Made by a program: the position numbers and the translations under genes. A DNA stretch of 33,986 nt from Candidatus Uhrbacteria bacterium (GTDB taxonomy: Bacteria; Patescibacteriota; Patescibacteriia; UBA9934): the NCBI GenBank assembly GCA_943358395.1, contig CALRGY010000012.1:1-33986 (forward strand), given 5' to 3'. The notes under the pieces are model-generated. The model worked only from the letters and a program-made list of their open reading frames with translations, did not search any database and was not told the DNA's origin. Shown here in pieces: positions 26,460 through 29,483 of the stretch (the first letter of the stretch is position 1; every line of letters starts with the position of its first letter).

Positions 26460-27260
26460 ATGTCGAAAATCGAGGAAGGATTCTTGGGACCGAAAAGGGT
26501 CACGAAGCGTGATGGGGCTTCGGCGCTGTTGGGTGCGGGGTTAGGACTGATTCTTGGGGGATCGGTTTTTGCACCAGAGGGGAAAAAGGAACCGGTGGAG
26601 AAGGCGGCTTCATCGGCGGATGTTCCGGATAAGGATGTACCCGATGCTGCATCGATGAAACGTGAATCGCAACAAAAGCCTCGTCCGTCATATATTGAAG
26701 AGTCTTCGCGTGAAAGAGAAGAGGAGCGAGAAAAAGAAGGCGAACGCAAGGCTATTTTTGACGCGATTGAAGGATCGGTGAAGGGGGCATTGGATGAAAA
26801 GGTGAAAGATGCGTTGCGAGATTCAGAGAAATCGGAAGAATTGCGTGCAGCGCTTCAGGAACATTGCATGGCAGAAATTCAGGCAATGCGATTTGAACAA
26901 AGCGGTGAAGCATTGATCATCAGCGCTCCGGGACATAAAAATGATCCAGACTATATTGTAACATTCACGATAATTAGTCCGGATGAGGCGCGTATTGTAT
27001 GGCAAGAAAAGTATGATTATCTTCAATCTCGTCAGATGATTTCACAATCTTTAGAGGCCTCACGACCTTCTGATGAAGATATGAGAGATGGCGTTCCTTT
27101 TATTTTGAACAATGATACGATTTTTGGGAAGTCACTTTATTCGACGCACGATGATTTTTCATTCAAGATTGGTGACGGAATGGCATTCATTATTTTTAAT
27201 TTTTGTGAGTCTTCTGCTGAGGATGCTGTGTCTAAAGGCACGCAGGAAGAAGGGGATTAG
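26460..27260 (+). CDS. Hypothetical protein with a short hydrophobic segment
   Basis: A 266-residue protein of no recognised family. A Gly/Ala/Leu-rich stretch (ALLGAGLGLILGGSVFA, about residues 21-37) may be a membrane anchor. It is followed by a long, highly charged coil (ESSREREEEREKEGERKA) and a C-terminal beta-rich domain (ALIISAPGHKNDPDYIVTFTIISPDEARIVW). The start follows copy D closely. A TATATT at the end of the element could be its -10. Its TAG overlaps the stop of the convergent fic gene by 2 bp, and no terminator separates them. Confidence 0.65.
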   Translation: MSKIEEGFLGPKRVTKRDGASALLGAGLGLILGGSVFAPEGKKEPVEKAASSADVPDKDVPDAASMKRESQQKPRPSYIEESSREREEEREKEGERKAIFDAIEGSVKGALDEKVKDALRDSEKSEELRAALQEHCMAEIQAMRFEQSGEALIISAPGHKNDPDYIVTFTIISPDEARIVWQEKYDYLQSRQMISQSLEASRPSDEDMRDGVPFILNNDTIFGKSLYSTHDDFSFKIGDGMAFIIFNFCESSAEDAVSKGTQEEGD

Positions 27261-28129
27261 ATGCCGATTTTCCAGATGCTTTTTTCTCGGAACGCCTCGA
27301 TGGTTTGGCGTTTGGCTTTGTTGAGGAGGGAAGAGAGGGATGTGTTGGTGATTTTGCTGTATTCGCTCAACGTAACGATACGTTTGCCTTCCAGATACGC
27401 CAGTCGTTTGTGATAGCTTTCTTGGAGTGCAAGCCCAACAATGTTTTCCATGATGGTTTGCGTGCCTTTGGTTTCCAGTTCATGAAAGGCTGCGTAATAG
27501 ACTTCGCGAGTGGCGAAGAGAATCGTCATTGGAACGTAGCCTTCGCGCAAAAGAAGATAATTGTTGAGTGCTCGGCCAATGCGGCCATTACCGTCCACAA
27601 AGGGATGGATACGCTCGAAAGTAAGGTGAAATGCAGCAATGCGGGAAACGATATGCTCCTGGGTATTCGCGGAATACGCGGAGAGCATCGCGGTAAGAAG
27701 GGCATCGATCTCGATAGGGTTCGGAGCGATGTAACTTCCAACGCGTACCCATTCATCGGCATTTCGAAATCTGCCCGCAATGCTGTCGCGAATATTCGTC
27801 ATGAGCATGGTGTGCAACAGCAGCATCATGTCTTTATCCAGCGGACGTTCGTGGGATTTTGGCTCAATGTAGCTCATAACGCGGGCAAGATTCTTTGCTT
27901 CAAAAAGCTCTCGTTCGCCGATATATCGGTCGAGGTCGATTTGCAAAAGGATTTTTTCTGTTTCTTCCAGCGTTAACGTGCTGTTTTCAATAGCATTCGA
28001 GTTATAGACCTGCTCCCCAACTTCCGCATCAAGAATGAGGCCCATGAGGGATTCCTTGCCTGGCAACGCGAGAATATATCGCTTGCGCAATGGTTCAATG
28101 CGGGTGAAATATGTTTTCAGCCTAGGCAT
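27257..28129 (-). CDS. Fic family AMPylase with class II inhibitory motif
   Basis: A 290-residue Fic protein. Near the N-terminus, S44-NAI-E48-N49 matches the (S/T)xxxE(G/N) inhibitory helix of class II Fic enzymes. AGRFRN..VRVGSYIAP is the target-docking region. The catalytic HPFVDGNGRIGR (H175) is complete, so transfer of AMP to a protein hydroxyl is expected once inhibition is relieved. A C-terminal winged-helix-like part (LSEYSKITNTSLSSLLNKAKR) suggests DNA binding, as in many Fic-HTH proteins. The start is ATG 28129; longer versions would lie across the TATAAT box at 28160-28165. The promoter carries an elaborate operator array, probably for autoregulation. Confidence 0.92.
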   Translation of the reverse strand: MPRLKTYFTRIEPLRKRYILALPGKESLMGLILDAEVGEQVYNSNAIENSTLTLEETEKILLQIDLDRYIGERELFEAKNLARVMSYIEPKSHERPLDKDMMLLLHTMLMTNIRDSIAGRFRNADEWVRVGSYIAPNPIEIDALLTAMLSAYSANTQEHIVSRIAAFHLTFERIHPFVDGNGRIGRALNNYLLLREGYVPMTILFATREVYYAAFHELETKGTQTIMENIVGLALQESYHKRLAYLEGKRIVTLSEYSKITNTSLSSLLNKAKRQTIEAFREKSIWKIGI

Positions 28130-28137
28130 AGGAGAAT

Positions 28138-28239
28138 AATAATCGTGAATAATGATGAAATTATAGCATACATTCACGTTTATTGCCACTATAACCGTGA
28201 ATGATGTTGTTTTTATGCCACGTATTCACGTTTATTATT
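28138..28239. promoter_or_regulatory. fic operator: two identical-spacing inverted dyads
   Basis: Four copies of a motif close to ATAAnCGTGAATR: cores at 28144-28150 (+), 28172-28178 (-), 28196-28202 (+) and 28224-28230 (-). They form two inverted pairs, each with cores 28 bp apart centre to centre and 21 bp between them; the pairs are offset by exactly 52 bp. The first dyad encloses the fic TATAAT box. A dimeric regulator binding here would block fic. The Fic protein itself, with its HTH-like C-terminus, is the obvious candidate. Confidence 0.8.
28160..28168 (-). promoter_or_regulatory. fic extended -10 promoter
   Basis: TGC-TATAAT on the minus strand (hexamer 28160-28165), 30 nt upstream of the ATG at 28129. 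Located in the middle of the first operator dyad. Confidence 0.7.
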
Positions 28240-28298: not shown

Positions 28299-29483
28299 AT
28301 GATTTTATCAAAACCGTTTCGGATTGGGATGATTATTGGGCTTATTCTTGCCCTTTTTGTGCCAGGAGTGTTTGCCGCGAGCCAGGAAAAGATTCTTCCG
28401 GTAACAACGGGAAGCATTTATAGTGCCGCAATGGCAGCAGATGACGGCTGGCTTGCGCTTGCGGGAATGCCTGGAAGCGTGGATGTGTATCAAAAAACCG
28501 GTGCGAGTTGGACGTGGAAACAGAATCTTGTTCCCGCAGAAAGCAGTATGGTGATGCCGTCTGCGATGACAATGAACGATGGAATGCTATTCCTTGGCGA
28601 TGCCTCTGCAAACGTAGTGTATGGTTTTGCGTTAAAGACGAGTACTGGCGTGTGGACGGAGTTTGGCGCCTTTCAAAGTGCCGATGTTGCTTCTGGCGAT
28701 AATTTTGGTGCATCCATCGCCGCAACGTCGAACCTGTTCGTGGTGGGGGCAAAGGAAAAAGACAGTAAGGGTGCGGTGTATGTTTTTGCGAAGCAAATTA
28801 CCGGAAAGTGGCTTCAAGTCTCAAAATTGACCTCATCGTCATGCTCGTCATCCGTATGCGCCTTCGGCTCATCTGTTGCGATGAATGCAACAGGATCGGT
28901 GATTGTGATCGGTGCTCCTGACGATTCAGGATCCCGACTTGAGGTATTTCTTCAGCGAACCGGCGGAACATTGCCAACATTTAGCCACGCGAAAACGCTG
29001 CTCCCTCCATCGAGTTCGGTGAATGTAAAATGTTTCGGACGAAGCGTTGCGACGAATGACAATGGGAACGTGATTGTGGGCGGAAGCTCATGCGAGGATA
29101 CGTTTGCGGTTGGTGCCGGCGCGGCACACGTTTTCGCGAAAACAACCCTGTTCCCTTCATGGCGATTTATCGACACGCTTTCTGCTCCAGAACCGATGAT
29201 GAGTGACGCATTCGGCACCTCAGTGGCAATACTCGGCAACACTATCGCCGTTGGCGCCCCAAGTTCTGATCTTGCCGCCACCAATGCTGGTGCAGCGTTT
29301 GTGTATACCAAAGGCGCATCCCACTGGAGCTGGAACAGCACCTTTACTGCCGCCGATGCTGCGGTTGCGTCCACAATGTCTGACGCTTTCGGTTCCGCGG
29401 TACTCCTCCCATCCGCATCATCGATCTTGTCCCTTTCGCCGTATAAAGATGGTATTGGCGCAGCGTACGATGATGCTCGGTAG
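28299..29483 (+). CDS. Secreted FG-GAP-like beta-propeller protein
   Basis: A 394-residue exported protein. The signal peptide (about residues 1-26: basic start, GMIIGLILALFVPG core, FA-AS cleavage) leads into repeated propeller blades with FG-GAP-like motifs: GDNFGASIAATSNLFVVGA, AFGSSVAMNATGSVIVIGAP, CFGRSVATNDNGNVIVGG, AFGTSVAILGNTIAVGAP and AFGSAVLLP. A few Cys are present and could form disulfides. It is probably a binding protein at the surface; no enzymatic motif is visible. ATG 28299 is chosen because a TATCAT box precedes it by 8 nt and because the signal peptide begins there, not at 28251. Confidence 0.82.
   Translation: MILSKPFRIGMIIGLILALFVPGVFAASQEKILPVTTGSIYSAAMAADDGWLALAGMPGSVDVYQKTGASWTWKQNLVPAESSMVMPSAMTMNDGMLFLGDASANVVYGFALKTSTGVWTEFGAFQSADVASGDNFGASIAATSNLFVVGAKEKDSKGAVYVFAKQITGKWLQVSKLTSSSCSSSVCAFGSSVAMNATGSVIVIGAPDDSGSRLEVFLQRTGGTLPTFSHAKTLLPPSSSVNVKCFGRSVATNDNGNVIVGGSSCEDTFAVGAGAAHVFAKTTLFPSWRFIDTLSAPEPMMSDAFGTSVAILGNTIAVGAPSSDLAATNAGAAFVYTKGASHWSWNSTFTAADAAVASTMSDAFGSAVLLPSASSILSLSPYKDGIGAAYDDAR

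Follow-up and report, generated by a model that had tools for sequence, protein, structure and literature searches.

The promoter of a fic gene in a Candidatus Uhrbacteria contig (CALRGY010000012.1) carries four copies of the core CGTGAAT in alternating orientation, which raises the question of which protein reads these sites and whether that protein is Fic itself. An initial annotation of the window (the whole stretch of DNA analysed, 33,986 nucleotides) had read them as two equal operator dyads and had suggested an AMPylation switch that also controls its own synthesis.

The fic gene and its operator

The fic gene is the sole match of its kind in the genome at a threshold of E 0.01. Its FIC motif, HPFVDGNGRIGR, fits the class II Fic pattern HxFx(D/E)GNGRxxR, and SNAIEN fits the class II inhibitory pattern (S/T)xxxE(G/N); the inhibitory motif is intact, as annotated (Table 1). 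The product of the divergent neighbour (window 28299-29483, plus strand) looks secreted and contains four FG-GAP_2 repeats (E 8e-26); the promoter-like site of this gene lies outside the operator.

Table 1. Features of the fic gene and its promoter region (window coordinates)
Feature	Position	Strand	Remarks
fic coding sequence, 290 aa, ATG start at 28129, stop included	27257..28129	-	Pfam Fic E 2e-21; start common to orthologs
Class II inhibitory motif SNAIEN, residues 44-49	27983..28000	-	same in 58/59 proteins
FIC motif, residues 175-186	27572..27607	-	FIC pattern in 57/59 proteins
Putative C-terminal HTH-like module, helices at residues 254-261 and 265-282	27284..27370	-	conservation, moderate-confidence fold model, hhalign
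Half-site H1 (CGTGAAT)	28224..28230	-	most distal to fic
Half-site H2	28196..28202	+	orientation opposite to H1, 28 bp away
Half-site H3	28172..28178	-	in -35/-10 spacer; 24 bp from H2
Half-site H4	28144..28150	+	downstream of -10; absent from some orthologs
-35-like GTGGCA	28184..28189	-	between H2 and H3; TTGACA in most orthologs
-10 TATAAT of fic promoter	28160..28165	-	between H3 and H4, inside promoter-proximal dyad

The four alternating cores were all found exact, with the annotated centre spacings of 28, 24 and 28 bp. Read on the minus strand toward fic, H1 and H3 point forward and H2 and H4 point back (H1>, <H2, H3>, <H4), and the -35-like GTGGCA lies 18 bp upstream of TATAAT, which does fall within the dyad said to straddle it. 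Each dyad is one copy of a 46-bp direct repeat (76% identity, displacement 52 bp), and the extended half-sites are 12-13 bp long (AATAA[AT]CGTGAAT). The CGTGAAT core alone is unremarkable in the window (14 matches against 8.6 expected). A search of the whole genome (912,413 bases, ~0.91 Mb) for further CGTGAAT dyads, as the initial annotation had advised, found the dyad CGTGAATN{20,22}ATTCACG in these two places only, and allowing any spacer of 7-25 again retrieved just these two, so that the spaced dyad is confined to the fic promoter.

Conservation of the half-site array among orthologs

We collected orthologs from relatives, from the phylum and from named genomes. The phylum genomes were mostly 0.7-1.5 Mb in size with more than 90% completeness, and those that gave orthologs are probably Patescibacteria. 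The 60 orthologous genes were 46-72% identical to fic. Five genomes of gammaproteobacterial mussel symbionts also carry orthologs and keep the operator; these are sound cases from outside the phylum, as one lies on a 686-kb contig and flanking genes are held in common. Orthologs assigned to Spirochaetales and Verrucomicrobiota come from metagenome bins, where they lie on short contigs, and binning errors could account for them.

Lack of conservation upstream of orthologous fic genes had been named beforehand as evidence against an operator, and the comparison gave the reverse: at least three perfectly phased alternating half-sites were present in 49 of the 60 upstream regions, against an expectation of 0.02. 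Across the same 60 regions the convergent pair was spaced by 27 bp in 35 orthologs and 28 bp in 23, and the divergent pair by 23 bp in 21 and 24 bp in 30, where shuffled sequences gave an expectation of ~0.2 for each half-site spacing. In a profile anchored on H3, information was 2.3 bits in the half-sites and ~0.1 or less past the operator edges. The -35 element (mostly TTGACA) fell between H2 and H3, with the -10 element 16-18 bp further on, in 52 of the 55 non-symbiont orthologs, so that H3 fills the spacer between them.

The reading as two equal dyads 52 bp apart is correct locally but did not extend to the family. Four or more half-sites, with one mismatch allowed, were found in twenty orthologs, and the fourth is often missing; the symbionts, L006 and L079 have H2-H3-H4 instead of H1-H2-H3, with both spacings unchanged. 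In the best register the H1-H3 distance was 50, 51 and 52 bp in 10, 40 and 10 orthologs, respectively. The unit shared across orthologs is three alternating half-sites, not two dyads. A displacement of 50-52 bp, about five helical turns, would still fit the annotated picture of dimers binding cooperatively on one face of the DNA. When the best inverted repeat was sought without a preset motif, many promoters taken singly showed only a modest excess; the signal draws its strength from the joint geometry across orthologs.

In roughly twenty orthologs (for example L045, L054, L057, L063, L066 and L076) the predicted -10 element ends ~6 bases before the fic ATG, and the fic mRNA of these genes looks leaderless.

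The C-terminal module of Fic

The last 50 residues of Fic are strongly conserved among the orthologs, in a pattern that resembles an HTH with a short wing of the HTH_17/MerR type. A fold model of the module gave two helices joined by a three-residue turn (local pLDDT ~75-80); the AlphaFold model of full-length Fic, built from an input of eight sequences, was poor. With hhalign, 44 columns of the module profile could be aligned to the C-terminal end of a different Fic family; one member of that family (L028) matches HTH_17 at E 1e-4, which does not reach the curated cut-off. The module alone had no significant match to a curated HTH family in Pfam or NCBIfam or to a chain in the PDB. The HTH-like C-terminus of the initial annotation is thus backed by the two-helix model, by conservation and by the alignment to an HTH_17-like tail, but not by a database identity, and we assign an HTH to the Fic C-terminus with moderate confidence.

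Which protein reads the sites

The dyad occurred in 26 of 41 genomes with an ortholog and in 19 of 339 without one (p = 6e-18), and in 25 of the 26 ortholog-bearing genomes that have it the dyad lies at the fic promoter. Within an operator, half-site bases 1, 4 and 7 agreed beyond all 2000 shuffles; this test leaves relatedness in, and separate branches show the effect nonetheless. The variants CGTGAAT, CGTAAAT, CGTTAAA and AGTGAAT change in concert per operator, as in L004 (CGTAAAT four times), the symbionts (CGTTAAA), L068 and L079 (CGTTAAT three times) and several operators with AGTGAAT. The promoter repeats of more distant Fic genes in the phylum differ, which makes the motif specific to this fic family. 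Except among the five sister symbionts, no neighbour gene recurred within ~1.5 kb of fic (open frames of at least 40 codons, excluding antisense frames inside fic).

One protein that travels with the operator should read all of its sites, and Fic is likely to be that protein, being the only visible candidate. Because the half-sites change in concert and a partner gene is absent, Fic is the likely repressor, acting through its C-terminal HTH-like module. Phylogeny dominated the mutual information computed between columns of the protein alignment and bases of the half-sites, which did not single out the C-terminus. Residue 274, an arginine in 56 of 59 proteins, ranked first for half-site base 1; the three proteins with A or K there are those whose operators have a majority of G at base 1 (L013, L080 and L081, on two separate branches). 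This agreement is a single pointer only. The proposal that fic controls itself through the half-sites is strongly supported by conservation, by the uniqueness of the dyad and by the concerted change of half-sites.

In a few genomes (L127, L131) a similar operator is found with no close fic ortholog beside it, and it is possible that the operator has other targets or binders. At L127:2978-3060 (genome G227, without a close fic ortholog) a fic-type promoter with three half-sites precedes a MQTEYEASFYPIKPEK.. gene, CYTH-like by eye, and a second fic-type promoter lies 3 kb from fic at L126:5457. These two may be captured promoters, scars or extra targets. At L130:4689-4780 (genome G229) the operator is followed shortly by EKGVWKIGI and a stop, identical to the end of fic over nine codons, and this is likely a fic deletion scar with the operator retained. 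A more distant fic stands beside the dyad in G146, and a broken piece of fic is kept in G458; together with L130, these indicate that some dyads in ortholog-free genomes are explained by decay or divergence of fic. The near-perfect palindrome CGTGAAAAATGGGACGATCGTCCCATTTTTCACG, present in four copies in genome G246 (L135:4671 and three other places), matches the dyad pattern and looks like a different repeat element.

Proposed mechanism and alternatives

We consider it probable that the operator array is autoregulatory, serving a stand-alone class II Fic gene whose product, once bound, represses the promoter. Acting through its C-terminal HTH-like module, Fic would bind the alternating AATAA(A/T)CGTGAAT half-sites, probably in the form of one dimer or of several that cooperate. 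With H3 placed between the -35 and -10 elements, and H2 and H4 on either side of these elements, Fic on H1-H3(-H4) would keep RNA polymerase off a strong promoter. Such self-repression would hold synthesis low and keep a potentially toxic enzyme scarce. From these sequence comparisons we infer both that Fic is the binder and that binding represses, and further that binding to DNA may affect, and be affected by, whether the enzyme is inhibited or active. An AMPylation switch governing its own synthesis, as first suggested, is a plausible design.

A separate, unlinked host regulator might instead bind the sites and control fic, with Fic itself not binding DNA. This reading would agree with the lack of a curated family for the Fic HTH and with the similar operators found at other genes in some genomes. 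We regard it as improbable, since the dyad has a single location per genome, with fic, the array is kept in distant hosts including the gammaproteobacterial symbionts, and the half-sites drift together per lineage with no common neighbour gene. It is also unlikely that Fic binds but mainly activates the promoter, or that the DNA is an allosteric or tethering site that tunes enzyme activity. H1 and H2 do lie upstream of the -35 element, a position typical of activators, and DNA stimulates the enzyme activity of CbFic2 (PMC10628234). However, H3 in the spacer and H4, where present, over the start region occupy positions typical of repression, the near-consensus -35 and -10 elements of most orthologs need no activator, and CccR, discussed below, is a repressor (PMC9755527).

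It seems very improbable that the repeats are no protein operator at all, and arose by chance tandem duplication, form structure in a leader RNA or serve a mobile cassette as its recombination site. In favour of this reading, the fic gene is scattered and apparently transferred between lineages, and an empty operator is seen at L130 as an apparent fic deletion scar. Yet transcription is expected to start downstream of H1, H2 and the -35 element, and a leaderless transcript is predicted for many orthologs; the phased geometry excludes chance, and neither an integrase nor any other neighbour gene recurs. We set these explanations aside on the geometry statistics, the site positions and the lack of a recurring neighbour, and kept self-repression by Fic as the preferred reading.

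Relation to known systems

The phd-doc and Fic type II toxin-antitoxin operons repress themselves through repeats in their own promoters, and the fic gene here shares such own-promoter repeats. It differs in that no conserved antitoxin gene stands beside fic (~1.5 kb, frames of at least 40 codons), and in that the inhibitory motif and the likely DNA-binding part lie in one polypeptide.

A self-repressing Fic-HTH protein is already known. CccR of Yersinia pseudotuberculosis (PDB 7XUX) is a class II Fic protein that carries an HTH at its C-terminus and represses its own promoter (PMC9755527). Its operator, AGATAATCAT-N26-ATGATAATCT, consists of 10-bp inverted repeats with a 26-bp spacer near the -35 and -10 elements, and repression needs dimerisation, with the DNA-binding helices 70 A apart (PMC9755527). 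CccR is a secreted effector, and its regulatory and toxic activities are reported to be independent (PMC9755527). CccR and the fic gene described here both have inverted repeats set far apart in the gene's own promoter, but the 7xux profile match is limited to the Fic core (E 1.8e-12), with no full-length homology, and CccR has one inverted pair, against three to five phased half-sites of other sequence and spacing in this family. CbFic2 of Coxiella burnetii is likewise a class II Fic protein with a C-terminal HTH, in which DNA binding promotes dimerisation and (de)AMPylation; it differs in carrying DUF4172 at the N-terminus, the work on it used random DNA and host histones, and an operator at its own promoter is not described in the cited part of that source (PMC10628234). 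SoFic (PDB 3EQX, 3ZEC; NCBIfam NF046030) also combines a Fic domain with an internal inhibitory motif, and 3EQX was deposited as a Fic domain containing transcriptional regulator. The match to SoFic is restricted to the Fic core, the C-terminus is different, and the score against the equivalog NF046030 was 40.6 bits, compared with a cut-off of 550.

What is new is the array of multiple half-sites with fixed alternation, kept in distant genomes with concerted changes in specificity, and a Fic family that matches CccR in its Fic part only. In the open-licence literature we found no matching description of this Fic family and no paper that links Fic domains to Patescibacteria or the Candidate Phyla Radiation. 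The exact, conserved operator geometry is now given for this family, and the natural specificity variants (the four listed above) can be paired with their own proteins; the suspected link of Fic inhibition, dimerisation and DNA binding thereby becomes directly testable. Our results suggest that antitoxin-free Fic genes of very small genomes are made safe by self-repression and not by a partner protein.

A broader reading, which we offer tentatively and hold to be possible rather than likely, is that these are widespread, horizontally moving one-gene switches in very small bacterial genomes. A single polypeptide would transfer AMP, inhibit itself as an enzyme and repress its own gene from three to five phased half-sites. 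Occupancy would be coupled to the inhibited state, so that a signal (ATP level, a target or phage infection) would both activate the enzyme and derepress the gene, and at least two other Fic architectures of the phylum would share this design with other HTHs and operators.

Other Fic families and distribution

Searches of phages, plasmids and viral contigs retrieved no close relatives, returning either low-identity other Fic proteins or nothing. A second Fic family of the phylum (L018, L020, L022, L027 and L029) has an N-terminal Xre-like HTH (HTH_3/HTH_31) and AACTTTATAAAGTT or AACTATATATAGTT palindromes at the promoter, usually two. A third (L024, L026 and L028) has a C-terminal HTH_17-like tail. 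Both seem to be built on the same design, with HTHs and operators of their own. In the third family, CTTAATATGGT..ACCATATTAAG arms straddle the -10 element; these arms are identical in three genomes, and the middle varies.
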